DNA of 64,000 nt, taken from the NCBI RefSeq assembly GCF_030812295.1, contig NZ_JAUSSK010000001.1, forward strand, positions 124,001-188,000. The letters run 5' to 3'. A program made the translations under genes and the position numbers. Each line of letters begins with the position of its first letter. Positions within the stretch are counted from its first letter, which is position 1. Below are positions 21,370 through 61,086 of the stretch, in pieces. The stretch is from Luteibacter jiangsuensis (GTDB taxonomy: Bacteria > Pseudomonadota > Gammaproteobacteria > Xanthomonadales > Rhodanobacteraceae). The notes below the pieces were generated by a model, which searched no databases, was not told the origin of the DNA, and saw nothing but the letters and a program-made list of their open reading frames with translations.

Positions 21370-21371
21370 CA

Positions 21372-23560: not shown

Positions 23561-23562
23561 CC

Positions 23563-37544: not shown

Positions 37545-38729
37545 CTAAAGGACCGCGGCAGTGTTAGACAATTCCACCTCGGTGCCGTGCGGTCTGGCCA
37601 GCTCGAAATCGCGATACGCGCCGGGGTCGCCGGCCATGCCGGCTTCGGCGGCCTTCGCGATGTTGTACATCTCGCGCGCCGTTACGTAGTGCAGCACGTG
37701 TCGCTTGCCGTCGTTGTAGGCGGATTCGAGGTAGGCGTGCATGTCGTCGACCGGCTTGCCCAGCAACGTGTCCATGTCGCCTTCCTGCGTGCCGTGCGTG
37801 TGAACCTTGATGAATACCCATTCCGGCCGTCCCTCGACATGGATGCCGGTCCGAACCCACTGGTCCACGCGGGACGGCGTGGGCGGGCAGCCGCGACGGA
37901 TATCCGAATTCTCGATGCGTGGAACGATGCCGAAGCGACGGTTCTTCCAGTTGAGGCCGAGCACACCCTGGATGATCAGGAGGTCGCCTGACGGCTTGCC
38001 GCCCACCCGCATGGGAACGCCGGTATCGTGTGACTTGCACTTATGCGGGTCGTCTGTCGCGTAGTAGATCGCGTTCGACATGCGTGTCTGCGTGTCGCTG
38101 GGCGCGGAGGGCAGGGTGAAGTCGGCATAGCAACCCAGCTCGCGCAGCAGGATGAGTTCGTTGTCGATGCCGCACCAGCGGCCGTCGGCGCGCGAGTTGT
38201 CCAGGCACCAGTTGCCGTGGATGAAAGCGAAGCGAAGCTGTCCGGTGACCGGATCGCGTGGCAGCGCACCGTGCTTCTCGTGCAGAAGCCGGTTGAAGCG
38301 GTCCATCGTGGCGACGAAGTTTTCCGGCGTGTCGTTGTCGTGATGCAGGTGGATCTCGATTTCACCGTAGCCGTCGGCGCAGAGCGCGGCGATCTTGTCC
38401 AGGTGCTCCTCGACGTATTCCTCTTCGGGATAGAAGAAGCTGTGCTGGGGTACGCGCCCGTCGGCGTCACGGTGGCGCGATGCCATGGCCCGGTACTCGT
38501 CGCACCAGCGGTCGACACGGCGGCGCTGGGTATCCATGTCGACGCGGCCCCAGTTCGGCTCGAAATGGTCGACGAAGCAGAACAGTACGTGCACGGGGCC
38601 CTCGACCTTCGGCGGCGCGCGCCGGGTCAGGTATCCCCACAGCCAGTACTGCATGTTGCGCGCGCGGATCGCCGCGGTCACCGCGATGGCGACGAGCAGG
38701 ATGAAGGCGAGAAGAACGATGGCGATCAC
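37545..38729 (-). CDS. Polysaccharide deacetylase-like protein, membrane-anchored
   Basis: The 394-residue protein starts at GTG 38729, which overlaps the upstream glycosyltransferase stop (GTGA) and puts the anchor VIAIVLLAFILLVAIAVTAA at the N-terminus. The soluble part has VLFCFVDHFEPNWG (candidate catalytic Asp/His), EIEIHLHHDNDTPENF (metal-binding H-x-H-H), HGNWCLDNS and a later NDPHKCKSHD-like stretch. This resembles distant CE4-type deacetylases. It could act on N-acetyl groups of the exopolysaccharide from the periplasmic side. Family assignment is by motif resemblance only. It is the last gene of the 23-kb operon. Confidence 0.62.
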   Translation of the reverse strand: MIAIVLLAFILLVAIAVTAAIRARNMQYWLWGYLTRRAPPKVEGPVHVLFCFVDHFEPNWGRVDMDTQRRRVDRWCDEYRAMASRHRDADGRVPQHSFFYPEEEYVEEHLDKIAALCADGYGEIEIHLHHDNDTPENFVATMDRFNRLLHEKHGALPRDPVTGQLRFAFIHGNWCLDNSRADGRWCGIDNELILLRELGCYADFTLPSAPSDTQTRMSNAIYYATDDPHKCKSHDTGVPMRVGGKPSGDLLIIQGVLGLNWKNRRFGIVPRIENSDIRRGCPPTPSRVDQWVRTGIHVEGRPEWVFIKVHTHGTQEGDMDTLLGKPVDDMHAYLESAYNDGKRHVLHYVTAREMYNIAKAAEAGMAGDPGAYRDFELARPHGTEVELSNTAAVL

Positions 38730-39892
38730 GCGGATGCTCCGGTCGGGACCAGGGTGAGCAACTGCTCGGCATTGTTGCGCCACTGCCGCTCGCTGGCGAT
38801 ATAGGCTCGTGCGGCATGGCCGACACGTTTGCGCTCGTCGGCACGCTGGGCCAGTTCGAGCACGCGTTCGACGCAAGCCGTCGCATCGCCGCGCGGGAAC
38901 AACCAGCCGGTATGGCCGTCGACGATCACTTCCGCCACCGGCGCGTAGTCCGGCGCGACCACCGCCACGCCCATGCCCATGAACTCGAACAACTTCATGG
39001 GGGAGCCATAATGATTGGAATTCGGCAGCACGGCGTAGTCCATGCAGGCGATCCAGCTGGCCACCTCCTCGTGCGGGACACGGCCCGGCAGGAGCACGCG
39101 ATCGGAAAGCCCTCGCGCCGCGATCAGTTCGCGCACCGCCGGCAAGGTCTTGCCGTCGCCGACGAAGACCAGGGCGAGATCGGGTACGCCGTCGAGGCGA
39201 TTGGCGATGGCCTCGACGAAGCTGTCCATGCCGTGCCAGTGGGCGAATGCCCCGATGTGGCCGCAGACGGTGCGGCCGGTGAGCCCGCGCTCGGCGCGCA
39301 GGCGGTCGCGATCGAAACGGGCGGGATCGAAGCGGGGCAGGTCCACGGCATTGGGGGACACGACGGAGGGAGCGATATCGCCATACGCCTGCCCGGCGAT
39401 ATCGCGAAAGTAGCTGGAGATGAAGACGAGACCGGTGGCGTTGCGCAGGCACCAGCCTTCGATCCGGCGTGCCAGGGCTTTCATCGTCAGCGGGCGCACG
39501 CGATCGACCAGGGCGGAATCGTTGATCTCGAGCACCAGCGGAATACCGCGCTGGCGCGCCAGCCAGACGGTGGCGAAGAGGAACAGCGAATAGCGTTCGT
39601 AGATGAGTTCCGGCGCGGCGTGGCGCCATGCCCGGCCCATGCGCAGGAGGGTGACCGCGTTGTAGAGCAGTTCGAAGGCCTCGAAGACGATCCCGGGAAG
39701 CCGTGTCACCAGGCCGGCGATCCTCCCGCGGCCGGACGAGGCCGCGGTATCGGTTTCCCTTTCAGGATCGGCGCCCGGAAACGACATCACGTCCACGTGG
39801 TGGTCCAGTTCGCGGAGTGCGCCCACGATGCCGCGGATATGCACGCCTTCGACATGGCGGCCACGCGTGCGGTGATGATAGAGGATCCTCAC
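38726..39892 (-). CDS. Glycosyltransferase family 4 protein
   Basis: The 388-residue cytoplasmic GT-B glycosyltransferase has an N-terminal acceptor-side domain (RILYHHRTRGRHVEGVHIRG) and a C-terminal nucleotide-sugar domain with VCGHIGAFAHWHGMDSF, VFVGDGKTLP and the KLFEFMGMGVAVVAPD E-x7-E-like donor motif. It adds one sugar to the growing repeat unit; the sugar is unknown. GTG 39892 overlaps the upstream deacetylase stop (GTGA). Confidence 0.85.
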   Translation of the reverse strand: MRILYHHRTRGRHVEGVHIRGIVGALRELDHHVDVMSFPGADPERETDTAASSGRGRIAGLVTRLPGIVFEAFELLYNAVTLLRMGRAWRHAAPELIYERYSLFLFATVWLARQRGIPLVLEINDSALVDRVRPLTMKALARRIEGWCLRNATGLVFISSYFRDIAGQAYGDIAPSVVSPNAVDLPRFDPARFDRDRLRAERGLTGRTVCGHIGAFAHWHGMDSFVEAIANRLDGVPDLALVFVGDGKTLPAVRELIAARGLSDRVLLPGRVPHEEVASWIACMDYAVLPNSNHYGSPMKLFEFMGMGVAVVAPDYAPVAEVIVDGHTGWLFPRGDATACVERVLELAQRADERKRVGHAARAYIASERQWRNNAEQLLTLVPTGASA

Positions 39893-40527
39893 GACGCGGT
39901 TCCCGGCAGGGCGGCGAAGCGCATGCCCTCGCCGAGCCACTCCGGCAGGAGCACGTCCAGTGCCAGGGCCGCCTTGTCGCTGTCGTCGTGCATGAGCACG
40001 ATATCGCCGGCGGCTGGCGGATCGCCGCGCAGACGCGCGATCAGCGCTTCCGTCGGCCTGTCCTGGTAGTCGAGGCTGTCGTATGACCAGTAGACGAAGC
40101 TGCGCTTGTGCCGGACGAAGTGCGCGAGCAGCGGCGCGCCCACATAGCCATGTGGCGGGCGCATGCGGTGGTGCGGACGGTCGTCGAACAGGCGCAGCAG
40201 CGCATCGGTGCGATGCACCTCGTCGAGCTGCCTGGCCAGGGTCATGTTACGGAAGGACCAATGGCTGTACGAGTGGTTGCCGACCATGTGTCCTTCATCC
40301 ACGATCCGCTGGACGATGTCCGGATGCCGTTCGATCTTTTCGCCTACCAGGAAGAAGCTGGCCTTCACTCCATGCTTGGCCAGGGTATCGAGAAGCCGCG
40401 GCGTGTAGCCGGGCTCCGGACCGTCGTCGAAGCTGAGGTAGCGCAGCGCCGAGTCGCGCGTGCGGGTCAGCACGAGGTTCTCCGGCAGCAATCCGAGCAG
40501 GTCGTGCTTCTTGAGTTTCCAGTTCAT
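39889..40527 (-). CDS. Polysaccharide deacetylase (NodB/CE4 family)
   Basis: The compact 212-residue CE4 protein carries all five motifs: LSFDDGPEPG (motif 1, D-D metal/catalytic), GNHSYSH (motif 2, His metal ligands), RPPHGY (motif 3), DSLDYQ (motif 4) and IVLMHDDS (motif 5 His). No signal peptide is visible, so it may act on a lipid-linked intermediate at the cytoplasmic face or be exported otherwise. It overlaps both neighbours by 4 bases. Confidence 0.9.
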   Translation of the reverse strand: MNWKLKKHDLLGLLPENLVLTRTRDSALRYLSFDDGPEPGYTPRLLDTLAKHGVKASFFLVGEKIERHPDIVQRIVDEGHMVGNHSYSHWSFRNMTLARQLDEVHRTDALLRLFDDRPHHRMRPPHGYVGAPLLAHFVRHKRSFVYWSYDSLDYQDRPTEALIARLRGDPPAAGDIVLMHDDSDKAALALDVLLPEWLGEGMRFAALPGTAS

Positions 40528-41696
40528 GCGTTGGCGCCAAGGTGGGCGGGGGCTTCGGCGGCGACACGGCCGAGCACGCGCTCGAGCCGGTCGATATTCT
40601 CGTCCCAGCGGAAAGTCGCGGCGTGCGCCGCGATGGCGGCGGGATCGAAATGACGCTCGAACACCTCCACCAGCGCCGTTCCGAGTTCATGGGGCTGGTG
40701 TGGCGGCACGAGGATGCCCGCGTGGTGGGGCACCACTTCGGGAATGCCGCCGACCGCGGTCGCGACGATCGGCGTGCCGCATGCCATCGCCTCGAGGATC
40801 ACGTTCGGCACGCCTTCGTTGTGGCTGGGCAGGCAAAGCACGTTCGCGGCCTGGAACCAGTCCGCCAGCGCGGCGTGATCCACCGCACCTTCGAAATGCA
40901 CGGCCGGTGCGCAGCACAGGGAAGCCGCGCGGTCCTCGAGGTTGGCACGGCTCGCGCCTTCGCCCACGTAGACCAGGCGCGCGTCGTGGTGCCGTTTCGC
41001 GAGGATGGGAAACGCCTCGATCAGGTCGTGACAGCCCTTGGTCGCCTTGAGATTGCCCACGTAGAGCACGATCGGTACCTCGGGCGGCAGGCCGAGGCGC
41101 AGCCGTGCGGCGGCCCTGTCGCCGCGGTGGAAGATGCGCGTGTCGACGCCGTTGTAAATCGTCTCCACGCCCTCGGGGCGCGCACCGAGTTCGATGGCCT
41201 TGCGCGCGAGTGCCTTGCTCACCGTGATCACGGCGCCCGCGCCACGCAGGGCGGATCTGATCTGCGGCCGGCGCAGGCGCGCGGCGGCCTGCATGTTGAG
41301 GTCGCTGCCGTGCACCTTGACGACGTAGGGGATGCCGAGCAGGCGCGCCACCCAGGCTCCACCTGCCGCGTCCGGATATGCCCAGCTTGCCAGGATCACG
41401 TCGTAGCGGGCACGGCGCAGGTCGCGGCCGCGCTGCCACATCACGCAAGCGAAGAAGCAGAGCGCGTTGAGGAAACGGCCGATGCCGGGCGGGTGGTAGA
41501 ACGTGAAGTGGTCACGCCGGATGCCGGGGACGTCCACCGTGCCCTTCACTCCGCCCATGCGCTCGCGGAAATCGACGGCCGTGAGCACGTCCACCTCGTG
41601 GCGCTCCGCCAGGCGCTGGAATTGCTGCCGGTTGAACGTGCCACGGCGGGGATCCCATGGCGTGGGAAAGAGATTGGTGAGCACCAGGATCTTCAT
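40524..41696 (-). CDS. Glycosyltransferase family 4 protein
   Basis: The 390-residue GT-B transferase has KILVLTNLFPTPWDPRRGTF at the N-terminus, KVHGSDLN acceptor-side motif, ETIYNGVDTRIFH, VLYVGNLKATKGCHDL, and the donor motif HNEGVPNVILEAMACGTPIV. It is probably involved in building the exopolysaccharide repeat unit. ATG 41696 overlaps the upstream glycosyltransferase stop (ATGA). It is similar in outline to the sugar transferases of exosortase-type loci. Confidence 0.88.
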   Translation of the reverse strand: MKILVLTNLFPTPWDPRRGTFNRQQFQRLAERHEVDVLTAVDFRERMGGVKGTVDVPGIRRDHFTFYHPPGIGRFLNALCFFACVMWQRGRDLRRARYDVILASWAYPDAAGGAWVARLLGIPYVVKVHGSDLNMQAAARLRRPQIRSALRGAGAVITVSKALARKAIELGARPEGVETIYNGVDTRIFHRGDRAAARLRLGLPPEVPIVLYVGNLKATKGCHDLIEAFPILAKRHHDARLVYVGEGASRANLEDRAASLCCAPAVHFEGAVDHAALADWFQAANVLCLPSHNEGVPNVILEAMACGTPIVATAVGGIPEVVPHHAGILVPPHQPHELGTALVEVFERHFDPAAIAAHAATFRWDENIDRLERVLGRVAAEAPAHLGANA

Positions 41697-42811
41697 GACG
41701 CATGCTCCATGTCGCCGAAGTAGAGCCGGCCATAGCGCGCGGCCATGGCTTCCATCGATCCGTGCGCCTCCACCCAGGCACGCGCCGCGAGGCCCAGCGT
41801 GGAGGCACGCTGCGTCGCATGCAACAGGTCGAGGATGGCCGCGGCCAGCGCCGACGGATCGCACGGCGGTACCAGGTGCCCGGTGGTCCCATCGTGCACG
41901 ATCTCCGCATTGCCGCCCACGTCGGTCGCGACGATGGGCAGGCCGGCGGCGCAGGCTTCCAGGAGGGCCATGGAATAGCCTTCGGTCACCGAGGAGAGCG
42001 CGAACAGGTCGAAACCCTGGAGCAGGTCGCGCACGTCGTTGCGATCTCCCAGGAAGTGCACGCAACCGGCCACGCCTTCGTCGAAGGCGGCGGCGCGCAA
42101 GGTCTCGCGCAACTCCCCGTCGCCGACCAGGACCAGCGCGGTATCCGGCCGGGTATGGCGGACGATGCGGAAGGCGCGGATCAGGCTCATCTGGTCCTTG
42201 GCCCAGTTCAGCCGACCCACGCTTCCGATGATGCGGGTGCCACGCGGTACCCGGATCAATCGGGTGAGACGTTCGTGCATGATGTCGGAGGCGATGTCGA
42301 AGCCGTCGAGCACGATGCCATTCGGCACCACGCAGGTCTTCGCCGCCGGCGCGATGCCGCGCCTTACCGCATCCACGCGCGCGGCTTCGCAGACGGCGAC
42401 GACGGCATCGGTGGCCTTGAGCGCGCGGCGGAAAAGCCATTCGCGGCGACCAGGCTTCCTTTGCGCGCCCATGCCGTGGCGGGTGTTCACCACCTGGCGG
42501 ATACCCATGCCCGCGCTGGCGAGCACCGCCTGGTAATGCGCCACGGCGTTATGCGTGTGCAGCACCTCGGTGTGGTGCGCGGCCAGCAGTTGACGCGCGC
42601 GGCCAAGGGCGCGCAGGTCGAAACCGGTGCGCTTATGGCAGGCGGCGACGGGAATGCCCAGTGAGTCCAGCTCACCCGCCAGCGAACCGCGCTCGAACAG
42701 GCACACCACCTGCACCTTGTGGCCTTGCCGATGCTGTTCCTTGACCAGGTCCAGGACCATGCGTTCGAGGCCGCCGCGATTGAGGTTCTCGACGAAGTGG
42801 GTGATGTTCAC
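41693..42811 (-). CDS. Glycosyltransferase family 4 protein (exosortase-locus stp2-like)
   Basis: The 372-residue GT-B glycosyltransferase begins ITHFVENLNRGGLERMVLDL, a signature start of the sugar transferases (TIGR03088-like) in exosortase-A polysaccharide loci. It has VVPNGIVLDGF, IIGSVGRLNWAKDQ, LVLVGDGELR and SVTEGYSMALLEACAAGLPIV donor motifs. It starts at ATG 42811, overlapping the CapK-like gene's stop by ATGA. Confidence 0.87.
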   Translation of the reverse strand: MNITHFVENLNRGGLERMVLDLVKEQHRQGHKVQVVCLFERGSLAGELDSLGIPVAACHKRTGFDLRALGRARQLLAAHHTEVLHTHNAVAHYQAVLASAGMGIRQVVNTRHGMGAQRKPGRREWLFRRALKATDAVVAVCEAARVDAVRRGIAPAAKTCVVPNGIVLDGFDIASDIMHERLTRLIRVPRGTRIIGSVGRLNWAKDQMSLIRAFRIVRHTRPDTALVLVGDGELRETLRAAAFDEGVAGCVHFLGDRNDVRDLLQGFDLFALSSVTEGYSMALLEACAAGLPIVATDVGGNAEIVHDGTTGHLVPPCDPSALAAAILDLLHATQRASTLGLAARAWVEAHGSMEAMAARYGRLYFGDMEHAS

Positions 42812-44163
42812 GAGGCCAGCTCCGAAACGGTGACACGCAGCTTTCCACTGCGGGTCAGCGGGATGTCGTCGACGAAGTGGCAGTGCAGTTCGGCGCTGTC
42901 ACCCAGCACCTTGCCCACTTCGCGGCGAATGTAGTCGAGCGAGGCATCGTCGAATCCACGGCCTCGCACGATCGATAGGTCGAGCCGGTCGAGCCGTCGC
43001 TGGACGAGCTGGAAGCGTGCGAGCCCCGGGACGTCCTTGAGCATGTGCGGGAAGAATTCGCCCGGAAGGATGTGGCCGGCGGGAGTCCGTATGGCGTCGA
43101 GCTTGCGGCCGTCGACCGAGGCAAGCATGGGCAGGCCCCGGCCACAGGCGCATGTGGAGGTGGCGTACGTGGCCATGTCGCCGTTGACATAGCGGATGAA
43201 TGGCATGCCGTAATTGAACAGGTCGGTGATGGCGACCTCGCCGCTTCCGCCGACGGCCGGCATGCCTTCGTGGTCGAGTGTCTCGACCACGAGGTGGTCC
43301 GCGTTCACGTGCAGGCCCTGGCGATGCTCGCATTCGGAAGCGATCAGCATGAATTCCCGACAGCCGTAGGTGTTGTAGGCGGGTGCGCCGAAGGCCCTCT
43401 CGATGAGGTCGCGTTGGAACGGATGCAGGGCTTCGGCGGCGCCGATGACGGAGACCGGGCGCGCCACCTGGCGATTGTTCGCCAGCAGCCATTCGGCCAG
43501 GCGGACAAGCGGCCCGACATAGCCGACGACGACCTCCGGACGGTAGGCGTCGATGGCGTCGGCGTAACCGGCCATGTTCGACTCGTTCATGTGGAAACTG
43601 TCGAGCAGCTTGCGTGCGAACACGGCGTTGTAGACGCGGTCCTTCAAGCGGTGCATCGCGCTGGGATTGCCGACGGCGCCACCCCAGAGGAACAGCGTCC
43701 GGCGGCCCATCCGCGAACCGGCCCAGCCGTAGCCGCGCCACATCACGGCCACGCGGCGGTCGTTGCTTTCGCGGGTGAACCCGAAACGCAGCGGTTCGCC
43801 CGTGGAGCCGCCGGTGGCCTTGTAGCCCAGCGATGCCTTCAGCGGCGTGGCCTTGATTTCGTCGGCGTTGTCGCGGATATCCGCCTTGGTCAATACGGGG
43901 AGCCTTGCATAGTCGTCCATGTCACGGATGTCCCGCGGCACGATGCCCAGCGCGTCCCAGCGACGCCTGTAGTACGGCACCTCGCGATAGCACCAGTCGA
44001 GCAGGCGTTTCAGCCGCTGGAACTGCAGGGCCTGCACTTCCTCGGGGGCCAGCCACTGGTCCCGCTCGTAGCGGCGCATGTACGTGGGCGTGTCGCGACG
44101 ACGCAGGCCGCCTTCGTATGCGGGCCAGACGATGCGGCGAAAGGCGGTCTCGTAGAGATTCAT
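42808..44163 (-). CDS. CapK/phenylacetate-CoA ligase family AMP-ligase
   Basis: The 451-residue member of the ANL superfamily of adenylating enzymes has the P-loop KATGGSTGEPLRFGFTRES (residues ~118-136), the aromatic YGCREFMLIASE motif and the C-terminal lysine context PLTRSGKLRVTVSEL. CapK-like proteins occur in capsule loci and probably activate an acyl or amino acid for attachment to a sugar, although no product is proven here. It is flanked by a glycosyltransferase and the ligase, each with ATGA overlap. Confidence 0.82.
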   Translation of the reverse strand: MNLYETAFRRIVWPAYEGGLRRRDTPTYMRRYERDQWLAPEEVQALQFQRLKRLLDWCYREVPYYRRRWDALGIVPRDIRDMDDYARLPVLTKADIRDNADEIKATPLKASLGYKATGGSTGEPLRFGFTRESNDRRVAVMWRGYGWAGSRMGRRTLFLWGGAVGNPSAMHRLKDRVYNAVFARKLLDSFHMNESNMAGYADAIDAYRPEVVVGYVGPLVRLAEWLLANNRQVARPVSVIGAAEALHPFQRDLIERAFGAPAYNTYGCREFMLIASECEHRQGLHVNADHLVVETLDHEGMPAVGGSGEVAITDLFNYGMPFIRYVNGDMATYATSTCACGRGLPMLASVDGRKLDAIRTPAGHILPGEFFPHMLKDVPGLARFQLVQRRLDRLDLSIVRGRGFDDASLDYIRREVGKVLGDSAELHCHFVDDIPLTRSGKLRVTVSELAS

Positions 44164-45422
44164 ACGGTTCGCAGGAGCACGGCGACGAGGACGAACAAGG
44201 CGAAGACGCTGCATGCCCCCGCGGGCAGCCAACGCCATCCTCCGTTGGAGAGCCGGAACATCGGCAGGGTCGGCCAGCGACGGCGCGCACCCACGTAGTA
44301 GCCGGCGACCATGGCGGCGATCAGGTAAAGCACCACCATGTAGCTGCGGCTGAGGAAGAACGCCGCCGCGAACAGGCCACACAGGGAAAGCAGAAGGGTC
44401 AGAGCCATCTGCCGCTCCGCGGCCCATTCGGCCTCGACTGTGGGATCGGCACCGGTGGGGCCATGGTGGCGGACGATCGTCAGCATCATCCAGAAGCCGT
44501 AGCCGACGAAGGCGAGCCAGAGCACGAAGCCGATGAAGCCGGTCTCCGCCAGCACGAGCACGAACGAGTTGTGCGCGGTCAGGTCGTTGTACTCGGTGAA
44601 ATTGCCCGGGCCGACGCCGAACGCGGGATGCTCGCGGAACATCTCCAGGCCGGAGTACCAGGCGTCCACGCGACCCGCGGCCGACTCCTCGCCGGCATCC
44701 AGTTCTTCCATCCGCGAGGAGAGTAGCTTCATCGCGGCAAGTCCGACGACGCCGATCGCGCCCGCGACAAGGGCTCCCTTGCGGTACCAGACATAGCAAC
44801 CGGCGACGACCAGCACCGCCAGCATGGCGCCGCGCGAGTTGGTGAGATAAGTGCCATAGAGCAGGAGCAGGGCCGCCCCGAGCCAGACCGGGCGCATCGC
44901 GCCGGCGCCGCGTCTGCCAAGGAACACCGCCATGGGCAGGGTCGCCGCGAACAGGAGGCCGAGATCGTTCGGATCGTTGAAGATGCCCACGTACTGGATG
45001 CGCCCGCCTTCGCTCAACGGCGTGCCTGTCCAGCCCACGCCGGTGCTCGCCTGCTCGACGCCGTGCAGTGCGAGCACCGTTGCACAAGCCACGAACACGC
45101 CCATGGCGATGCGCACCCGCTTCTGCGTGCCGCACGCGGCACCGAAGACGAAGAAGGCGATCACCACCGGACCGAAGCGGGCCAGTTCGTCGAGCGCGCC
45201 GCCGGCCCAGCCGTTGCTCATCTGCGAGATCATCAGGATCAGCAGGAAGGCGGGCAGGATCACGAACTGCGGTGCTTCGAAGGTCTTCGACCGCGATGCC
45301 AGCCACATGGCGAAGGCCATCAGCAACACCACCGGGAGGATGGGCACGGTCTCCAGGCCGGCTATGTAGTCCTGGGGACGGATGATGGTAAGTACGACGT
45401 AGAGGAGGATCAGGGGGAACAT
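44160..45422 (-). CDS. O-antigen ligase/polymerase-like protein (exosortase-type O-ligase)
   Basis: The 420-residue polytopic membrane protein has about 10-12 helices with a large periplasmic loop. The stretch YIRPQDY-like (LTIIRPQDYIAGL) at the start and the motif IQYVGIFNDPNDLGLLF (residues ~140-156) are highly characteristic of the probable O-glycosylation ligases seen with exosortase A; AHNSFVLVLAETGFIGFVLW is the Wzy/WaaL periplasmic histidine region. It likely polymerises repeat units or transfers glycan to an acceptor. ATG 45422 lies 13 bases inside the upstream deacetylase gene. Confidence 0.82.
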   Translation of the reverse strand: MFPLILLYVVLTIIRPQDYIAGLETVPILPVVLLMAFAMWLASRSKTFEAPQFVILPAFLLILMISQMSNGWAGGALDELARFGPVVIAFFVFGAACGTQKRVRIAMGVFVACATVLALHGVEQASTGVGWTGTPLSEGGRIQYVGIFNDPNDLGLLFAATLPMAVFLGRRGAGAMRPVWLGAALLLLYGTYLTNSRGAMLAVLVVAGCYVWYRKGALVAGAIGVVGLAAMKLLSSRMEELDAGEESAAGRVDAWYSGLEMFREHPAFGVGPGNFTEYNDLTAHNSFVLVLAETGFIGFVLWLAFVGYGFWMMLTIVRHHGPTGADPTVEAEWAAERQMALTLLLSLCGLFAAAFFLSRSYMVVLYLIAAMVAGYYVGARRRWPTLPMFRLSNGGWRWLPAGACSVFALFVLVAVLLRTV

Positions 45423-47643: not shown

Positions 47644-47668
47644 GTCGGCGTTCCCCCCGGGCGCCAGG

Positions 47669-53600: not shown

Positions 53601-54052
53601 ATATGTCGGTCGGTGCCCAGGCGGAACAATTCCGCGCGGACCAGGGGACCGTTCTCGAGATCGAACGGCGTCGTGACGATGCGCGAGAACGCGGCCATGA
53701 TCCGTGCATCGCTCTCGAACGGAGCCAGCAGGGAAAGATCGTGGAAAGCGATCGGCAGCGTGGTATGGCCGGCGACGAAGAGGCCTTCGCCATCGCCGCT
53801 GAAGGTCGCGCGCAAGGCTTCGTGGCGATCGACGATCGCCTGCAGCGCCCATTCGAGAGCCGGCACGTCGAGCAAGCCCTTGAGGTCGAGCGAAACCGCT
53901 TCGTTATAAGCCAGCGAGGCTTCCGGCTCCAGCCGGGATGCCAGCCACACCTCGCGCTGCGGTGCCGTCGTCGGGACGAGCCGCGTGAGCGGCGCGCCTG
54001 CGAACGGATCGTAGTCGACCGCCGTGGCGGCGGCCAGCTCATTGTGCGTCAT
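47669..54052 (-). CDS. Nonribosomal peptide synthetase, C-A-PCP-C-A(degenerate)-PCP
   Basis: The 2127-residue synthetase contains C1 (HHIVCDGWS, ~residue 159) and A1 (FTSGSTGRPKG ~634, NGYGPTETT, TGDRGRW and the A10 lysine motif NGKTDRK ~966). PCP1 (GGHSLLAAQ ~1022) and C2 (HHIIWDGWS ~1220) follow. The second A domain (~1540-2020) has lost its core: AFHTLGPDGKARG for the P-loop, TGYRGRW for A7 and ATGEVDI for A10, with no lysine. The final PCP2 is GGHSLLAVD (~2065). The chain then ends, with no thioesterase, reductase or docking domain. By my alignment A1 has pocket residues D-I-M-Q-V-G-G-V-Y, whose start (D-I-x-Q-x-G) recalls glycine codes; this is weak. ATG 54052 overlaps the PKS stop (ATGA). 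No PPTase gene is present in the window. Confidence 0.93.
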   Translation of the reverse strand: MTHNELAAATAVDYDPFAGAPLTRLVPTTAPQREVWLASRLEPEASLAYNEAVSLDLKGLLDVPALEWALQAIVDRHEALRATFSGDGEGLFVAGHTTLPIAFHDLSLLAPFESDARIMAAFSRIVTTPFDLENGPLVRAELFRLGTDRHILTIAAHHIVCDGWSFGVIVSDLAALYAQRTGQGPGPAPAGAFSNFALAEAAHAGSETAREDEQYWLDRFAGPVPVLDLPTDRSRPRRRTFTSRREDRMLDPTEVAAIKRLGAAHGASFYATLLAAFAVLLRRLAGQDDVVIGIPTAGQAAEGQQTLVGHCVNVLPLRARIDDEASFATVLGTVRNDLLDAFDHQRYTLGSLLARLSLARDPSRLPLVAVLFNLDAQLDETTVRFPGLRFNVEAVPREFENFEMFINAVQVDGGLRLECQYNADLFEGATVQGWLDAYATLLRHAALDPTEAAVALPIVSDAVYRELAALQPAPTPFPELRLAHEFFEQQVDRAPERAAVRHADRSLSYAALESRANRIGNALRARGIGHGALVGLSLARGLDMVAAVLGVLKSGAGYVPLDPTFPADRLAFMAEDASLAALVVDDDTPLAFEFDAARVIALNSGEIVDASFERPERNRRAATPDSVAYVIFTSGSTGRPKGVRVPHRAAANFLTSMQRVPGIAPDDRLVAVTTLSFDIAFMELMLPLTSGAEIVVAGRDDVRDGGQLRRLIEECDATMMQATPAGWRLLVDAGWQGRPAFRAVSGGEPLPVDLAEALLDRCGEVWNGYGPTETTVYSTYWRVSDPRGGIYIGRPIANTTVHILDEGGNHCPLGVPGEIHIGGAGVTLGYLDRPELTAEKFVADPWSEAPDSRMYKTGDRGRWLSNGLLEHMGRLDFQVKVRGYRIEPGEIESVLADAPEVARAVVMAREDRPGDVRLVAYVVARDGAAALDEDDLRARLRARLPDYMVPQHILVLDAIPLLPNGKTDRKSLPPPIAHSISTSGERIAPRNEDERRVAAAMESVLCLPDLDIRDDFFALGGHSLLAAQLTARLNREFGVTLSFRTLFDAPTIERLASAIGTQVASGSAPATAPVGHRPATEQDHAPLSLMQRRLWALERMHPGRVTYNAPSAHRLRGQLDEHAFDMAFQALIQRQPIMRTAFRDLGNDIAQVVAPQLEYPLFPAEDLSHLPPEERETRLMQRLQELTDTPFDLGAAPLFSARMFRLADDEHALFFMPHHIIWDGWSFDILYNELSALYRAFAAGQPSPLAPLPVTYGDFSEWHAEWLESPAFQVQLGYWRERLAQMGDIRALPTDHPRRPGMSGLGRTEWIRVSREDTDAMHEVARQADATLNMTLLALYFAMLSSSAGQHDLVVGTPVRGRNQTELESVMGYFNNLLPLHVSVDPALSFLEFVRHVKRTAIEAFGHPDVPLEYLQRELKVGHGAGATLYQALFSFQDARQRVVDWGGLAHEQILLFQSGATEDLGLWFLEGHAGMVGGVTYNADLLQADTARLMRERYLGMMRKVAIDPAIAVGTLTAATAAERERMRDWNASGADARLPADLYALVARGAAISPDAVAIAQGSRETTYASLLRRVDRMASLLRERGAKNGSVVGLCVDPGTERLAALLAIARTGSTALLLDRADPAARLRDILADARMTVLVGDATLETTLDWPRACALWLDADHAELDAAIVGDGDFIARPDADGAAIAFHTLGPDGKARGAALSHRAVAAAVEGLADALAFDAEQRVSGDALPVDPMSVIAPLLALAHGATWRIADAHALAHGDLGNLDTFIANPETWHTLVDTRWPGDRHLRAVVVGGTPTPDMAARIAASTAELWTLFGDAASAPVATCGRVEHIADALHEGRPATHAEIWIIDEDGEPCPIGATGELGVAGRTLAMPFGQRANAERQPGDGCLLRTGYRGRWLADGQLQVIGRDDRRIRSRGLDVEPAAIEALLVAQPGIVRAMAVSRTDHAGLFRVDAYAVGAPGNPPDAENLRAALATSLPAWSMPAHLVVLDALPLLATGEVDIAALPLPAEPYVGASAESTEPRSESERLLASVWTELLGMSRIRTSDNFFDVGGHSLLAVDMAVRIQKLTGVQLNLLDIANGTLGTLAAELAVAIPAATAPATKRGLLSRLLGRG

Positions 54053-57000
54053 GCGGTCACCCTCAGGTACTTGCCCGGCGCATCCGGGTTGGGAACGAAC
54101 CACGCGGGACGCCCTTCAGGATCCTTGCCAAGCCGCGCGCCGGGTATGGGCGGATGCTCGGCATCGAAGGAGGCCGTCTCGCGGCGGCGCGGCAGGAATT
54201 CCGCTTCCTGCATTTCAAGGATCGATTCGCGGAAGGCGCTGGCGATCGCGGCAAAATCCGTCTCGTCGTGCGCCGTGGTGAAGAAGCAGGGGAAGTTGTC
54301 GAGGATATGGATGCCGCGGCTGCGCATCATCGCGAAGAGCAGGTCCTGCAGCGGATGGTCCTCGGTGAAGACGGTCTTCCACACCGACGAGAAGTGGACG
54401 ACGTGGACCGGGGCGCCAACGCTTGCGCAGAAGGCGTTCAGTTCATCGGCCATGGCCGTGACCTTCGCGTTGAGCGAGGCCTGCAAGTCTGGACCTTCCT
54501 GTTTCAGGTGCGTGAGCACGGCATGCGCCGCGGCCAGGGCCAGCGGATGGCGGACGAAGGTGCCGGCGAAATAGGTGACGCCGACGGTGGGAGTGGAATC
54601 GTCGCCGAACTGCCAGTGGCCGCCGTCGAGCGCATCCATGAAGCGGCGCTTGCCGGCGATGACGCCGATGGGGAAGCCACCGCCGACCACCTTGCCGTAC
54701 GAGGCCATGTCGGCATCGATGCCGAGCATCGCCTGCGCGCCGCGCGGATGCGAGCGGAAACCGGTGACCACTTCATCGAAGATGAGCAAGGAGCCGGCTT
54801 CCTCGGTGATCGCGCGCAGCTCCTGGAGGAATTCCACCGGCTGGAAATCGGGCCGGCGGCTCTGCACAGGCTCGACGAGCACGGCGGCGATGGACGAGGC
54901 GCGTTCGCGGATGATCGCCAGCGACTCGGGCGTGCCGTAGTCCAGGACCAGGACGTTCTCAGCCGTATTGCGCAGGATGCCCGGCGCGGCGGGAACGGAC
55001 TTGAGTTTCCTGGTGCCGCGGACGATCACCTCGTCGAAGATGCCGTGATAGGAACCGGTGAAGATCACCAGGGTGTCGCGGCCGGTGACGGTCCGCGCCA
55101 CGCGCACGCACCCCATCACCGCTTCCGAACCGGTGTTGCACAGTGCCGCGCGGTCGAAGCCGGTGAGCTCGCATACCTGCTTCGCGACCACGCCGGCGAG
55201 GGGATGTTGCGGGCCGATCTCGTAGCCCGCGTCCAGCTGCTTGCGCACCGTATCGAGCACGAAGTCGGGCTGCCAGCCGAACAGGTTCATGCCGAAGCCG
55301 TTCAGCGCGTCGACGTACATGTTGCCGTCGAGATCCCAGACCTTCGAACCCTTGGAACGTTCGATCACGATCTGGTAGACGATTTCCTTCAGCAACGGGC
55401 GGAAGCCGTTCACCACACGCGGATCGGCGAGGTGCGGGCGGTGCTCTTCCGTATAGGCCTTGGAAGCCTTGCTGCGCTCGATGTAGCGGCGCATGAACGC
55501 GTCGAGGCGGGCGCGCTGCCTCGCGGAGAGACTGGTGTTCGTGGAATGGATCCGGGCGATCGCGCCGAAGGCCTTCTTTACATCGTAGGTAGTGTGGGCG
55601 AGCGCCGCTTCCTCGTCGTTCGCAGCCCCGGATTGCTCAGAAGAAGCCCCCTGCCTGGCGGCATCCCCTTGCGGGGTGGATGCCGCTCTGGTGGGAGCCG
55701 ACCCTGTCGGCGATACGGCGGTTCCATCGCCGGCAGGGCCGGCTCCCACCTGAGCGGTCCCCAACAAAGCAGCTCCCGCGGGAGCGGTGGCTCCCGCCAG
55801 CAACGCCAGCTGTTCCCGCATGATCTGCATTTGCTGCGCGATCACGTCCTGGACCAACCCGCCGCCGGAGGCGATTGCCACCGGCGCCACCGCCGCGGCC
55901 GGCACGGCGACAGCCGCGGCCACGGGCGCCACCGGCTGGGCTTCAGCCGGCAACAGGCGATCGATATGCGCCGCGAGCCGTTCGAACGAGGAACATCCGT
56001 CCATCAGTTCGCGGAAGGTGATCTTCAGTGCATAGGTCTTCTGTAGTTGCAGTGCCACCTGGGTCAGCGACAACGAATCGAGCCCCAGTTCGACGAAGGT
56101 CGCCGCCGGGTCCACGCCCTCGAGTTCGGTGCCGGAGACGTCCTCGAACAAGGCGGCGAGTTCGCCGACGAGACGTTGCGGACGAGCGGTGGTGGCGGGT
56201 GCGGAAGGCATCGGCATGGGGAGAAGCTCCGGTACGGCGGCAGTGGCGGTGACAGACGGCGCGACAGGCGCCGCCGCGGCGATGGGTGTGACGGACGCGG
56301 GAAGGCGCGCGTCGATCCAGTGCCGCTTGCGTTCGAAGGGGTAGGTGGGCAGCCGCACGCGGCGCCGGCTTTCGCGGTGGTCGAAGGCTCCGGTATCGAT
56401 GGCGGCGCCAGCCGACCACAACGCTCCGGCGGCACCCAGCCACGCGGTCCGTTCGTCGGTGGGGCCATCGCCGAGCGAGGCGACGATGGTGCGGCCGCGG
56501 CTTTGCGCGTGCTGCCGGGCGAGCAATGCGAGGCTGGGGCGCGGGCCGACTTCCAGGAAGGCGTGGGTGCCTTCGTCCAACACGTGCAGCAGCGCCGGCG
56601 AGAAGCGCACCGTGTGGCGCATATGCCGCGCCCAGTAATCGGGCGAGGTGGCTTCGGCATCGGTCAGGGGCAGGCCGGTCAGTGTCGAGACGATGCGCAT
56701 GCGTGGCGCGGCCAGCGGCACGGCGGCGACTTCGGCGCGGAACGCGTCGAGCACGGGGTCCATCATCGCCGAGTGGAAGGCATGCGAGGTATGCAGCAGG
56801 CGGCACGCGACGCCTTCGGCTTCGAGCGTGGCGCGGAAGGATTCGACGGCATCGGTATCGCCAGAGACGACGCTCGCGTTCGGCGCGTTCTCGGCGGCGA
56901 GCGATAGAGTGTCCGGGAGCCGGCCACGGAGCTCGGCGGCTCCCAGGCGAACCGAAAGCATGGAACCCCCGGGCAACGCCTGCATCATGCGGCCACGGCG

Positions 57001-60000
57001 CGCGACGAGTCGGGCCGCGTCGGCCAGCGGCATGATACCGGCCAGCGCGGCGGCGGCGAACTCGCCGACGCTGTGGCCGATCATCGCGACGGGTTCCACG
57101 CCGAGGCTCATCCACAGGCGGGCCAGCGCGTATTCCAATGCGAAGGTCGCAGGCTGGGTCAGTGCCGTCGCCTTGAGCGCGTCGGCGTCGCCGGCGAACA
57201 TCCGGTCGCGCAGATCGAAGCCGAGCTCCTCGCGCAGCGCGCCTGCCACTTCGTCGAGCGCGGCGCGGAACACCGGCTCCGTGGCATGCAGTTCGCGGCC
57301 CATGCCAGCATATTGCGAGCCCTGGCCAGGGAAGAGGAAGACCATGCCCGGCGAGGGACTCGCGCAGGCACGGCACATCGCCGCGGCCGCGACGTCGCGC
57401 AGCTTCGCCATCGCGTCGTTGGTGGAGAGGGCGACGACATGGGTGCGCTGGACGAAGGCCTTGCGGCCGCATGCCAGGGTCCACGCCGCATCGGCGAGAT
57501 TACCGTCGGGATGTGCCGCGAGATGGTCGGCGAGACGAGCGGCGGCGTGACCGAGCGCCGTCGGCGTGCGTGCCGACAGCAGTAGCAATTGCGCGCCGCT
57601 GGCCGCGTCGGACGGCGCGCGCTCCGGTGCTTCCTCGAGGATCAGGTGGGCGTTCGTGCCACCGACGCCGAACGAACTCACGCCTGCGCGCAAGGGCCCG
57701 CCAGCGGTTTGCCATGGGCGCAGCGTGTCATTCACCACGAACGGGGAGTCGGCCAGGTTGAGGCGAGGATTGGCGGCCTTGTAATGCAGGGACGGCGGTA
57801 AGCGGCGTTCGTGCAGGGCGAGCGAGGTCTTGATGACACTCGCCGCCCCGGCCGCCATCACCAGGTGACCGACGTTGCTCTTCAGGGATCCCAGCGCGCA
57901 GAAGCCCTTGTCCGTGGTGCCCTGGCGGAACGCCTGTGTCAGTCCTTCGAGCTCGATCGGGTCGCCCAGCGGCGTGGCCGTGCCATGCGCTTCGACATAG
58001 GAGATGTCGCGTGGTGACACGCCCGCATCGTCGAGGGCCATCGTGATCACGGCGGCCTGGCCGGAGGCATTCGGTGCGGTGAAGCTCGCCTTTACCCCGC
58101 CGTCGTTGTTCACGGCCGCACCGCGGATCACGGCGTAGATAGGGTCTCCGTCGCGCAAGGCATCGGACAGGCGCTTCAGCAGGACGACGGCGGCACCGTC
58201 ACTGAACACCGTGCCTTGTGCGTCCGCATCGAACGTGCGCGTATGCCCGTCGGGCGAGAGCATCGATCCTTCCTGCGCGACGTAGCCACTGTTCGGGGGA
58301 CAGGCGATCGACGAACCTCCCGCGAGCGCCATGCCACAACGTCCCGCGCGCAAGGCGTCGAAGGCCTGGGCGATGGCGACCAGCGAGGTGGAGCAGGCGG
58401 TGTTCAGGCTGATCGCCGGACCCGTGAGGTTGAGCTTGTGCGCCACGCGCGTGGCGAGGTAATCCTTCTCGTTGCCGAGCATCACCTGGAACGCGCCGAG
58501 CTTGTCGATCAGGTCGGGCCGGCCACTGACATGCCGCTGGTAATAAGTCGCGTTGTGCATGCCACCGAACACGCCCACGGGTACTTGCTGCGCATCGGGC
58601 ACATAGCCGCCGCGCTCGAGGCATTCCCAGCACAGCTCCAGGAACAGGCGCTGCTGGGGATCGGTCAGTTCGGCCTCGCGTGGAGACATGCCGAAGAAGC
58701 CCGCGTCGAACTGTTCCACGTCGTCGACCACGCCACGCGCGGCGACATAGGCCGGATCGTCGCGATCGGCTGCGCTCACGGCGGGATCGAGTTCGCCCGG
58801 CGCGAAGAAGCGGATCGATTCGCGGCCGGCACAGAGGTTGTCCCAGAATGTCTCGACGTCCGGTGCACCGGGGAAACGTCCCGCCATGGCGATGATCGCC
58901 ACCGCTTCCCCCACCGCCTGCGCGCCACCCGCGAGGCGTCCTGCCAACGCTTGCCGGGTGGCGCGCCCCTCGATCGTGGCCGCCACGGCGGCCGGGGTCG
59001 GTTCGGCGAAGAAGCCGACCAGGGTTGGGGTCGGCGACAGTTCTTCATGCACGCGAGTCATGGCACGCGTCGCAAGAAGGGAGCTGCCGCCGAGGTCGAA
59101 AAAGTTGTCGTCACGGCCGACCGCGTCCAGGCCGAGGGTCTGGGCGAAGATGGCGCAGAGCCGGGTTTCGATATCGCCACGCGGCGCGACGAAGGGTGCG
59201 GCCAGTTCGGGGCGATCGCTGCCGGGGACAGGGAGGGCGCGACGATCGAGCTTGCCGTTGTCGTTGACCGGCAGCGCATCGAGGCGCATCCAGGCGACGG
59301 GCAGCATGTACTCGGGAAGCGTGCGGGCCAGCGCGTCCCGCAGGTCGCGCGCGCTCACGCTGTCGTCGTGGCCGACGTAATAGGCGACCAGGCGCTTTTC
59401 GCCGGGAACATCCTCGCGTGCGACGACGGTGGCGGCGGTGACGCCTGGAAGCGCGCGCAACGCGATGTCGATCTCGCCGGTCTCGATGCGATAGCCGCGG
59501 ATCTTCACCTGCCCGTCGGCACGCCCGACGAAGGCGAGATTGCCGTCGGGCAGCCAGTGCACGAGATCGCCGGTACGGTACAGCGTGCCACCGGCGACGA
59601 AACGCTCCGCGGTGAGTTCGGGCCGGTTGAGATAGCCACGGGCCACGCCGCTGCCACCGATGAAGAGTTCGCCGGTGTCACCGGCGGCGACCTCGTTGCC
59701 TTCACCGTCGAGCACATGCAGCGAGGTTTCGCCGATGGGCTTGCCGATGGGGATGGCCCGGAGGCCGTCGGGCAGTTCGCGCGGTATCGGGTAGGTGGTC
59801 GCGAAGGTGGTGCACTCGGTCGGACCGTAGCCGTTGATCAGTGCGGTGGAAGGCAGCGCGGCGTAAGCCTTGCGCACGTGGGGCACGGACAGCGCCTCAC
59901 CACCCGTCAGCACCACGCGCAGGCCCGCCAGGTTGGTGGCATCGTCGTCGACGATGGCGTTGAACAGCGCGGCGGTGAGCCAGGCGATCTCCGCTCCATG

Positions 60001-60741
60001 CATGGCGACGGTGCGTGCGATGCCGCAGCCCGTGGGCACGCGCTCGTTGTAGACCACGCATGTGCCGCCATTGAGCAGCGGAGCGAAGATCTCGAAGGTG
60101 GAGGCGTCGAAGCCCAGCGGTGCCGCATGCAGCACTTTCGGTGCATCGAAGTCGATGTAATCGGAGCGCAGGACGAGACGCAGGATCGACGTGTGCCGGA
60201 TCTCGACGCCCTTGGGCGTCCCCGTGGACCCGGAGGTGTACATGGCATAAGCGAGGTCGTCGCCCGAGCCCGCATGTGGGAGCCGCTTCAGCGGCGACGA
60301 GCGCTTGCCAGTCCAACCGCCGGTCTGGGTTTCCAGGGCGGCGACCGTGAACAGCGGAACGTCATCGGAAACGAAGTCCAGCGTTTCGTCCGCCACGATG
60401 GCCGCGACGTCCGCGTCGCGCAGCGCGAAGGCCACGCGCTCGGCAGGCCAGCGTGTGTCGATGGGCAAATAGGCCGCGCCGGCCTTCAGTACGCCGAAGA
60501 GGGCGACGATCGCCTCGACCGAACGTTCCATCAGCAAGGCCACGTAACTGCCGGGTTCCACACCCGCCGCCAACAACCCGGCCGCCACGCGGTCGCTGCG
60601 TGCATCCAGCTCGCCGTAGGTCAGGCTTGAGGCATCCGATGCCACGGCGGTCCGTTCCGGGCACGCTTTCGCCACGGCGGCGAAGCGACCGTGGACGGTG
60701 CCGGCGTCGTGCCCGGCGGCGGAAAGTGTCTGGTTCATCAT
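54049..60741 (-). CDS. Hybrid NRPS-PKS, A-PCP-KS-AT-ACP-aminotransferase
   Basis: The 2230-residue multienzyme contains an A domain (YTSGSTGTPKG ~170; NGYGPTECT), PCP (GGSS ~552) and KS (TACSTS Cys ~783, EAHGT ~918, KSNVGHL ~957). Next come AT (GHSVGE ~1222; HAFH ~1320 implies malonyl), ACP (GLDSLSL ~1555) and a class III PLP aminotransferase (SYGKVVGGGFPIG, Lys ~2017). The A pocket by my alignment is D-A-F-W-L-G-G-T-F, one residue from a published valine code. The expected product is a valine-derived chain extended by malonate and converted at the beta carbon from keto to amino, as in mycosubtilin/iturin-type MycA. Two REP-like repeats are translated in frame (A2-A3 linker at 60275-60297; ACP-aminotransferase linker at 55690-55750). 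ATG 60738 is an alternative start. It is the first gene of the operon. Confidence 0.93.
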   Translation of the reverse strand: MMNQTLSAAGHDAGTVHGRFAAVAKACPERTAVASDASSLTYGELDARSDRVAAGLLAAGVEPGSYVALLMERSVEAIVALFGVLKAGAAYLPIDTRWPAERVAFALRDADVAAIVADETLDFVSDDVPLFTVAALETQTGGWTGKRSSPLKRLPHAGSGDDLAYAMYTSGSTGTPKGVEIRHTSILRLVLRSDYIDFDAPKVLHAAPLGFDASTFEIFAPLLNGGTCVVYNERVPTGCGIARTVAMHGAEIAWLTAALFNAIVDDDATNLAGLRVVLTGGEALSVPHVRKAYAALPSTALINGYGPTECTTFATTYPIPRELPDGLRAIPIGKPIGETSLHVLDGEGNEVAAGDTGELFIGGSGVARGYLNRPELTAERFVAGGTLYRTGDLVHWLPDGNLAFVGRADGQVKIRGYRIETGEIDIALRALPGVTAATVVAREDVPGEKRLVAYYVGHDDSVSARDLRDALARTLPEYMLPVAWMRLDALPVNDNGKLDRRALPVPGSDRPELAAPFVAPRGDIETRLCAIFAQTLGLDAVGRDDNFFDLGGSSLLATRAMTRVHEELSPTPTLVGFFAEPTPAAVAATIEGRATRQALAGRLAGGAQAVGEAVAIIAMAGRFPGAPDVETFWDNLCAGRESIRFFAPGELDPAVSAADRDDPAYVAARGVVDDVEQFDAGFFGMSPREAELTDPQQRLFLELCWECLERGGYVPDAQQVPVGVFGGMHNATYYQRHVSGRPDLIDKLGAFQVMLGNEKDYLATRVAHKLNLTGPAISLNTACSTSLVAIAQAFDALRAGRCGMALAGGSSIACPPNSGYVAQEGSMLSPDGHTRTFDADAQGTVFSDGAAVVLLKRLSDALRDGDPIYAVIRGAAVNNDGGVKASFTAPNASGQAAVITMALDDAGVSPRDISYVEAHGTATPLGDPIELEGLTQAFRQGTTDKGFCALGSLKSNVGHLVMAAGAASVIKTSLALHERRLPPSLHYKAANPRLNLADSPFVVNDTLRPWQTAGGPLRAGVSSFGVGGTNAHLILEEAPERAPSDAASGAQLLLLSARTPTALGHAAARLADHLAAHPDGNLADAAWTLACGRKAFVQRTHVVALSTNDAMAKLRDVAAAAMCRACASPSPGMVFLFPGQGSQYAGMGRELHATEPVFRAALDEVAGALREELGFDLRDRMFAGDADALKATALTQPATFALEYALARLWMSLGVEPVAMIGHSVGEFAAAALAGIMPLADAARLVARRGRMMQALPGGSMLSVRLGAAELRGRLPDTLSLAAENAPNASVVSGDTDAVESFRATLEAEGVACRLLHTSHAFHSAMMDPVLDAFRAEVAAVPLAAPRMRIVSTLTGLPLTDAEATSPDYWARHMRHTVRFSPALLHVLDEGTHAFLEVGPRPSLALLARQHAQSRGRTIVASLGDGPTDERTAWLGAAGALWSAGAAIDTGAFDHRESRRRVRLPTYPFERKRHWIDARLPASVTPIAAAAPVAPSVTATAAVPELLPMPMPSAPATTARPQRLVGELAALFEDVSGTELEGVDPAATFVELGLDSLSLTQVALQLQKTYALKITFRELMDGCSSFERLAAHIDRLLPAEAQPVAPVAAAVAVPAAAVAPVAIASGGGLVQDVIAQQMQIMREQLALLAGATAPAGAALLGTAQVGAGPAGDGTAVSPTGSAPTRAASTPQGDAARQGASSEQSGAANDEEAALAHTTYDVKKAFGAIARIHSTNTSLSARQRARLDAFMRRYIERSKASKAYTEEHRPHLADPRVVNGFRPLLKEIVYQIVIERSKGSKVWDLDGNMYVDALNGFGMNLFGWQPDFVLDTVRKQLDAGYEIGPQHPLAGVVAKQVCELTGFDRAALCNTGSEAVMGCVRVARTVTGRDTLVIFTGSYHGIFDEVIVRGTRKLKSVPAAPGILRNTAENVLVLDYGTPESLAIIRERASSIAAVLVEPVQSRRPDFQPVEFLQELRAITEEAGSLLIFDEVVTGFRSHPRGAQAMLGIDADMASYGKVVGGGFPIGVIAGKRRFMDALDGGHWQFGDDSTPTVGVTYFAGTFVRHPLALAAAHAVLTHLKQEGPDLQASLNAKVTAMADELNAFCASVGAPVHVVHFSSVWKTVFTEDHPLQDLLFAMMRSRGIHILDNFPCFFTTAHDETDFAAIASAFRESILEMQEAEFLPRRRETASFDAEHPPIPGARLGKDPEGRPAWFVPNPDAPGKYLRVTA
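55690..55750. repeat. REP-like class B inverted pair inside the PKS gene
   Basis: Arms at 55690-55714 and 55726-55750, with an 11-base loop, form an imperfect palindrome. The first arm is identical to 12451-12475. It encodes part of the Gly/Ala/Ser/Thr-rich linker between ACP and aminotransferase (residues ~1664-1684) on the minus strand. Confidence 0.92.
60275..60297. repeat. REP-like class A unit inside the adenylation domain
   Basis: A single class A unit is read on the minus strand as SSPLKRLP and sits just before the A3 P-loop. It has the same sequence as the arm at 26337-26359 and is in frame. Confidence 0.9.
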
Positions 60742-61014: not shown

Positions 61015-61034
61015 GGTGGGATTTTTTTCCCACC
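61015..61034. other. Hairpin with T/A loop
   Basis: GGTGGGA and TCCCACC form a perfect 7-bp stem with a six-T loop, directly upstream of the PKS promoter region and downstream of the minus-strand terminator. Its role is unknown. Confidence 0.6.
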
Positions 61035-61036
61035 AC

Positions 61037-61065: not shown

Positions 61066-61086
61066 AATCAAGGCAACGGTCCAAAC

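Follow-up and report, generated by a model that had tools for sequence, protein, structure and literature searches.

An assembly line within an exopolysaccharide gene array

A stretch of 64,000 nucleotides from the 4.32-Mb genome of Luteibacter jiangsuensis (contig NZ_JAUSSK010000001.1, positions 124,001 to 188,000; this whole stretch is called the window) encodes a nonribosomal peptide synthetase–polyketide synthase (NRPS-PKS) assembly line together with genes of exopolysaccharide (EPS) synthesis. The list of open reading frames (ORFs) and their coordinates place eleven genes on the minus strand, tightly packed from 60741 to 37545. Rechecking of the ORFs bore out the positions of the two synthase genes given in an earlier reading of the sequence (the original prediction), as well as their strand and the gene order. 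Reading from 60741 downwards, with A denoting adenylation, T carrier, KS ketosynthase, AT acyltransferase, AMT aminotransferase and C condensation domains, the array consists of:

54049-60741, minus strand: NRPS-PKS synthase 1, A-T-KS-AT-T-AMT (Pfam, own domain models, motifs)
47669-54052, minus strand: NRPS synthase 2, C-A-T-C-A(dead)-T (Pfam, own domain models, motifs)
47993-49405, minus strand: degenerate third A domain, residues 1550-2020 of synthase 2 (own domain models, motifs)
46513-47643, minus strand: GT2 glycosyltransferase (PF00535)
45410-46516, minus strand: CE4 polysaccharide deacetylase (PF01522)
44160-45422, minus strand: Wzy_C/O-antigen-ligase-type protein (PF04932; TIGR03097 likeness below cut-off)
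42808-44163, minus strand: PaaK/CapK-type AMP-forming ligase (NCBIfam below cut-off; phenylacetate-CoA ligase 2y4o, E 2.5e-28)
41693-42811, minus strand: GT4 glycosyltransferase, TIGR03088-like below cut-off (Pfam, NCBIfam)
40524-41696, minus strand: GT4 glycosyltransferase (Pfam, NCBIfam)
39889-40527, minus strand: CE4 polysaccharide deacetylase (PF01522)
38726-39892, minus strand: GT4 glycosyltransferase, TIGR04063-like below cut-off (Pfam, NCBIfam)
37545-38729, minus strand: last gene of the array, conserved, without known family (Pfam, solved-structure comparison)

Junction lengths were computed with the likeliest start of each gene, further in-frame starts being present. At seven of the ten junctions (54052, 44163, 42811, 41696, 40527, 39892 and 38729) neighbouring genes share 4 bases as an ATGA/GTGA overlap, and at 45422 they overlap by 13 bases. 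The other two depend on start choice: synthase 2 and the GT2 gene are separated by a 25-base gap (ATG 47643) or share a 14-base overlap (TTG 47682), and the GT2 and CE4 genes overlap by 4 bases or lie 5 bases apart. The largest gap is 25 bases, in agreement with the tight spacing originally described.

The gene identities proposed earlier downstream of the synthases stood for the GT2, both CE4 proteins, the O-ligase, the CapK-like ligase and the three GT4 enzymes; the label 'deacetylase-type' found no support for 38729-37545, which matched no Pfam family at E≤5 and lacks a convincing relative of solved structure. Relatives of this last gene are present in stretches from L. rhizovicinus, Dyella, Frateuria, Dokdonella and Lysobacterales 63-13. 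The PaaK/CapK-type ligase has no Pfam match over cut-off.

Predicted chemistry of the two synthases

Pfam and our own domain models gave the order A-PCP-KS-AT-ACP-AMT for synthase 1, as originally predicted. Its first domain is of the amino-acid adenylation type (TIGR01733, 402.8 bits, over cut-off), on which ground a fatty-acid starter was rejected. The specificity code of this domain (A0) is DAFWLGGTFK, and the pattern D-A-x-W-x-GGTFK recurs in 54 of 61 A0 rows; we take the code to be Val-like, on a rule and code positions that are both assumed. Because three A0 codes from myxobacterial loci deviate (DVQF-I/V-AHV-type), the starter unit is predicted to vary among relatives. The AT domain carries HAFH, presumably a malonyl-type signature, and the active-site Cys motif of the KS domain, NTACSTS, was read by eye in the translation, where an automated pattern gave no match. 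The AMT domain is of the mycosubtilin type, matching 6kfm (mycosubtilin synthase A) with 377 bits and E 1.7e-111, against 169 bits for the next molecule.

In synthases of the iturin/mycosubtilin type, a KS-AT-ACP module with an AMT domain yields a beta-amino acyl chain. The window synthase shares these domains and has its best solved AMT match within that group, but differs from it in three respects: its starter is an amino-acid A domain instead of a fatty-acid ligase, no thioesterase, C-terminal or otherwise, was found in either synthase (Pfam scan, E≤0.001), and it is placed in an EPS locus.

In synthase 2, HHxxxDG is present in both C domains and GGHSL in both T domains, and the A1 code is DIMQVGGVYK. 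The code DILQLGMVWK, found in A1 domains of relatives and also in 9 of 39 A2 rows, is one that we take to be Gly-like. The third A domain has lost its A3, A5 and A10 motifs, the catalytic lysine included, and retains remnants that read FHTLGPDGKARG (A3), TLFGDAASAPV (A5) and LATGEVDI (A10); a line with three working A domains was rejected for this reason. Across 66 complete synthase-2 proteins, the window's and those of 65 relatives, 32 have no third A domain, 24 (the window's among them) a degenerate one and 10 an intact one, and Pfam agreed on the absence in all five A-less proteins tested. To be counted, a protein had to have two C domains with a carrier following the second; partial proteins, gene-finder misses and wrong-strand calls (e.g. 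L070, L024), L031 and L048 fall outside the count. Since the C domain and carrier that flank the dead A domain keep their motifs in the window, the last module is probably functional, with a unit loaded in trans.

Taken together, the domains and codes lead to a predicted product with a 3,4-diamino-5-methylhexanoyl group and one or two Gly-like residues. In this pathway, A0 would load a valine-like amino acid, the KS-AT-ACP module would add malonate, and the AMT domain would convert the beta-ketone to a beta-amine, giving a 3,4-diamino acyl chain. Synthase 2 would then add a Gly-like residue via A1, and its second C domain would append a further unit on the last carrier. As the A domain of this carrier is dead, loading would have to occur in trans, for which A1 is the simplest candidate.

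Conserved pairing of synthase and exopolysaccharide genes

The locus extends beyond the array to XrtA-type EPS export genes on the plus strand (19172-31665):

19172-19804, plus strand: XrtA-type EPS export protein (TIGR03027, 209.5 bits against a cut-off of 180)
19822-21369, plus strand: XrtA-type chain-length determinant (TIGR03007, 383.2 bits against a cut-off of 278.85)
21372-22139, plus strand: tyrosine autokinase, TIGR03018-like (below NCBIfam cut-off)
22136-23560, plus strand: outer-membrane beta-barrel-like protein, TIGR03016-like (below cut-off)
23557-24339, plus strand: HYD2, alpha/beta-hydrolase fold, TIGR03101-like, GARLG, no Ser nucleophile (motif; model predicted local distance difference test score, pLDDT, 91.2)
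24336-25172, plus strand: HYD1, alpha/beta-hydrolase fold, TIGR03100-like, GLCSG Cys and His (motif; model pLDDT 87.0)
27558-29606 (open frame), plus strand: Wzx-type flippase (PF01943 match from residue 174)
29606-30736, plus strand: FemAB/GNAT-type protein (PF13480; start picked within the frame 29486-30736)
30832-31665, plus strand: TIGR04325 methyltransferase (NCBIfam)

The true start of the flippase is probably near 28060-28080, because the PF01943 match begins only at frame residue 174.

A single scan of a genome collection, queried with the ACP-AMT end of the first synthase, yielded 275 relatives, of which the best 80 were kept. Locus content was counted in the 59 of these 80 loci that span 17 kb or more, where gene labels are best matches to the window and a few locus genes, the glycosyltransferase labels being loose. 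Counts of TIGR03007, TIGR03099 and exosortase refer to 15 synthase genomes hand-picked from the best 80 loci. The chain-length determinant TIGR03007 was found over cut-off in 12 of these 15 genomes, versus none of 14 named control genomes. In nine of the 12 it lies on the same contig as the synthase and within 50 kb of it, the other three having the two genes on different contigs. For independent genomes, the probability of such linkage by chance would be about 1e-12, a figure that overstates the strength of the evidence given that these genomes are related. The pairing of synthase and EPS genes is real and conserved. The co-occurrence that the original prediction had proposed to look for extends well beyond this genome, but is absent from loci of Lautropia and Variovorax.

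In Luteibacter, Dyella, Frateuria and Rhodanobacter loci, the synthase is followed by most of the window's EPS genes. Twenty further stretches from nine genomes were analysed; those of L. rhizovicinus, Dyella and Frateuria hold nearly all of the genes, the export operon lying in the same region as the rest: synthetase, GT2, CE4, Wzy_C, ligase, GT4s, last gene, Wzx, HYD1, HYD2, outer-membrane protein, kinase, chain-length and export proteins. What escaped detection was the third GT4 in the stretches from Dyella and the second CE4 in those from Frateuria. The composition is thus common to Luteibacter, Dyella and Frateuria and is met less exactly in Dokdonella, where HYD2-HYD1 directly follow the synthetase and EPS genes lie within the next 50 kb. 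The original prediction knew of no described system with this composition, and searches of an open-access library likewise turned up no description; the composition itself is shared among these genera. EPS-type genes are present in 41 of the 59 long loci (28 of the 41 from Luteibacter, Dyella and near kin), 10 of the 41 also having the HYD pair, while seven of the 59 have the HYD pair without EPS-type genes. In other genera, the synthase has relatives of the TIGR04325 methyltransferase beside it (11 of the 59 long loci).

These data bear on whether a secondary-metabolite cluster has simply come to lie beside an EPS cluster by chance. AMT-type synthases are common: in the window's family, 66 genomes out of 147 gave a match to the ACP-AMT query at E≤1e-100, with an identity of 69% or more in 51 cases and of only 42-55% in 15, the latter probably being other AMT synthases. 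Set against this are the operon-like overlaps in the array, the same-contig linkage within 50 kb in nine of 12 genomes and the same gene set in the three genera Luteibacter, Dyella and Frateuria, and we consider a chance neighbourhood very improbable. In Thiomonas (L059) the synthase is 74% identical to the window's in its best segment and the chain-length gene only 26% identical, which suggests that synthases of this kind joined EPS loci more than once.

In one relative, a Cupin_8/JmjC-type gene lies directly upstream of the synthase (L046, 3455-4375), and relatives of it occur in 29 of the 59 long loci; its protein may hydroxylate the product. None was noticed beside the window synthase, where no search was aimed at it.

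The export genes and the HYD2-HYD1 pair liken the window to the exosortase A/PEP-CTERM (XrtA) EPS loci, with which it shares the export, chain-length, kinase and outer-membrane genes. The array's glycosyltransferase families also resemble XrtA-associated NCBIfam models, below cut-off, and to this extent the 'exosortase-type' of the original prediction was apt. Unlike those loci, the genome has no match to exosortase (PF09721) and no TIGR03098 ligase over cut-off (best 240 versus 592.35 bits). Exosortase was likewise not found in 11 of the 15 synthase-bearing relatives, several of them drafts, and PEP-CTERM sorting was rejected as the context. This affects the proposal that the peptide connects the EPS to another surface partner, such as a lipid or protein anchor. 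The FemAB/GNAT and Wzy_C proteins of the same locus would suit such a role, the latter resembling the 'O-glycosylation ligase' TIGR03097 below cut-off; the lack of exosortase makes PEP-CTERM sorting unlikely there, and synthase 1 begins with a domain of the amino-acid, not the lipid type, so that we regard an anchor of this kind as improbable.

The NRPS-PKS may here supply what a ligase and a pyridoxal phosphate (PLP) decarboxylase may supply in other XrtA loci. A strict swap for the TIGR03098/TIGR03099 cassette was rejected, as TIGR03099 occurs over cut-off on the same contig, at most 20 kb from the synthase, in three of the 15 genomes (G004, G005 and G015).

Probable release by the hydrolase pair and the proposed fate of the peptide

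The original prediction had missed the dead A domain, the absent starter lipid, the absent thioesterase and the HYD pair. HYD1 has Cys at its nucleophile position in every domain of two sets (21 and 34 domains, with three loci common to both), together with an invariant His (H246 of a 25-sequence alignment). The corresponding position of HYD2 is never Ser in the first set (22 of 22), and is Arg in 20 of 22 and 33 of 34 domains of the first and second sets, respectively. The Cys and Arg positions of the window proteins match those of loci with TIGR03100 over cut-off. Fold comparison of the HYD1 and HYD2 models indicated the broad alpha/beta-hydrolase class and singled out no thioesterase; the thioesterase DcsB is among the HYD1 matches at ranks 17, 22, 27, 32 and 50.

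For the extended comparison, 29 HYD loci were chosen by HYD1 matches (18 of 22 places with TIGR03100 over cut-off, and 11 below it). HYD2 and HYD1 are adjacent or fused in all 29, and an A domain lies within the fetched stretch in 18. In four loci (L144, L145, L147 and L151), an NRPS bears HYD2 as a fused domain behind its last carrier, where a thioesterase would otherwise stand. HYD2-HYD1 stand right behind the synthetase, or behind a phosphopantetheinyl transferase gene, in Dokdonella, Lysobacter, Rhodocyclaceae and some Myxococcota loci. We conclude that the pair probably performs release of the peptide.

Single proteins with HYD2 and HYD1 fused were seen at L143 5917-7758, L149 8029-9849 and L133 8298-10151, further supporting joint action. 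A minimal version of the system was observed at L145 8096-15470, where class-III aminotransferase, A-T-HYD2, HYD1, CE4-like and Wzx-like genes form a short run. In L141, the sole XrtA-type locus annotated in this way, HYD1 (over cut-off) and HYD2 (below cut-off) stand beside the TIGR03098 ligase, the PLP decarboxylase TIGR03099 and TIGR03097, all three over cut-off, and an 83-residue ORF that is ACP-like by eye, without family match. Tentatively, and as no more than possible, the Cys enzyme HYD1 and the Arg pseudo-enzyme HYD2 could form a general off-loading device that passes acyl, aminoacyl or peptidyl groups from carriers to XrtA-type polysaccharides, with the ligase/ACP/decarboxylase cassette or an NRPS-PKS as alternative sources.

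The explanation we favour, to which we give about an even chance, takes the locus for an EPS superlocus of XrtA type and Wzx/Wzy style that has a peptide assembly line of its own, the small diamino-acyl peptide being released by the HYD pair and joined to the EPS. We infer this chemical link; a peptide-decorated glycan, as raised in the original prediction, remains the best reading. The pseudo-hydrolase HYD2 would dock the last carrier, from which HYD1, the Cys enzyme, would take the chain and hand it to an acceptor, most likely an amino sugar that a CE4 deacetylase has freed in the EPS repeat. The outcome would be a cationic, peptide-bearing EPS.

Several findings weigh against this explanation. 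No enzyme joining the peptide to the sugar was identified. The window's HYD1 and HYD2 fall below the curated cut-offs (TIGR03100, 83.3 versus 168.45 bits; TIGR03101, 84.5 versus 202.75 bits), and their genes, on the opposite strand, are 22 kb away from synthase 2. Eleven of the 29 HYD loci have no A domain within the fetched stretch, and the surroundings of the NRPSs with fused HYD2 in L144, L147 and L151 look housekeeping-like by eye, so the HYD pair is not confined to EPS loci. All substrate assignments lean on assumed rules, and A1 codes are variable among 75 rows (two mislabelled: L068_3, a starter domain, and L082_3, unrelated), DILQLGMVWK being the commonest with 18. Eleven of the 59 long loci have neither EPS-type genes nor the HYD pair; seven of them are from Lautropia, where both are missing inside the fetched 10 kb. 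The tested neighbours in one Lautropia locus are not EPS genes, and the same is true of Variovorax L070, where HYD is present; this lack of pairing counts against a strict synthase-EPS link. In Lautropia dentalis, an over-cut-off chain-length gene lies on a separate contig.

The Lautropia and Variovorax synthases, standing away from EPS genes, are also what would be expected if the product were a free secreted small molecule (e.g. an aminostatine-like protease inhibitor, a signal or a metallophore) merely co-regulated with EPS. The Val-malonate-AMT chemistry would yield an aminostatine-type unit, and a small, non-lipidated product could exit via a general exporter. The linkage to EPS genes across several genera, including Thiomonas with its divergent chain-length gene, argues against it, as does the absence of a dedicated exporter noticed beside the synthase, though exporters were not searched for. 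We see the free molecule as a serious possibility that falls short of being probable.

A possible chemical precedent for a peptide-bearing EPS is the sheath of Leptothrix, a bacterial extracellular glycan whose functional groups we presume to be those of a peptide. According to passages of one paper, the sheath glycoconjugate bears thiol, carboxyl and amino groups (PMC8264430), and 'thiopeptidoglycan' occurs as a reference title in PMC11412304. One Luteibacter paper, in the part available, names a 'novel' PKS/NRPS cluster, as a cluster type and without function or EPS link; this is probably the present cluster in a sister species. EPS-cluster passages in PMC11340318 and PMC2907700 name no NRPS, and a text-term lookup in the XrtA-locus paper (Haft 2006, PMC1569441) gave nothing.

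If a peptide-decorated EPS is indeed made, an assembly line usually tied to antibiotics would serve matrix building, and a function would be suggested for the two 'exosortase A system-associated hydrolases', which are hypothetical-type NCBIfam models. It would also account for the ligase and PLP genes in XrtA loci, and predicts that Luteibacter, Dyella and others make an EPS that is cationic and bears peptide. Were the HYD pair a general off-loading device, ribosome-free peptide decoration would be a widespread layer of EPS chemistry.

Further features were observed around these genes. A large gene without Pfam family (26122-28062, plus strand) accompanies the locus in several genera. The segment 31629-37534, which separates the EPS halves, holds a CzcA/CusA-type metal efflux gene (closest solved relatives ZneA and CusA), a gene that by eye resembles those of outer-membrane efflux proteins, and one that is CopL-like but scores below cut-off. 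Neither efflux protein was matched in any of the 23 stretches compared (L160-L182). Upstream of synthase 1 is a terminator-like hairpin (61065-61043, minus strand), a weak signal given 11 such sites in the region versus 8.3 expected by chance. The gene at 60839-62158, divergent from synthase 1, has by eye the look of an autotransporter barrel.

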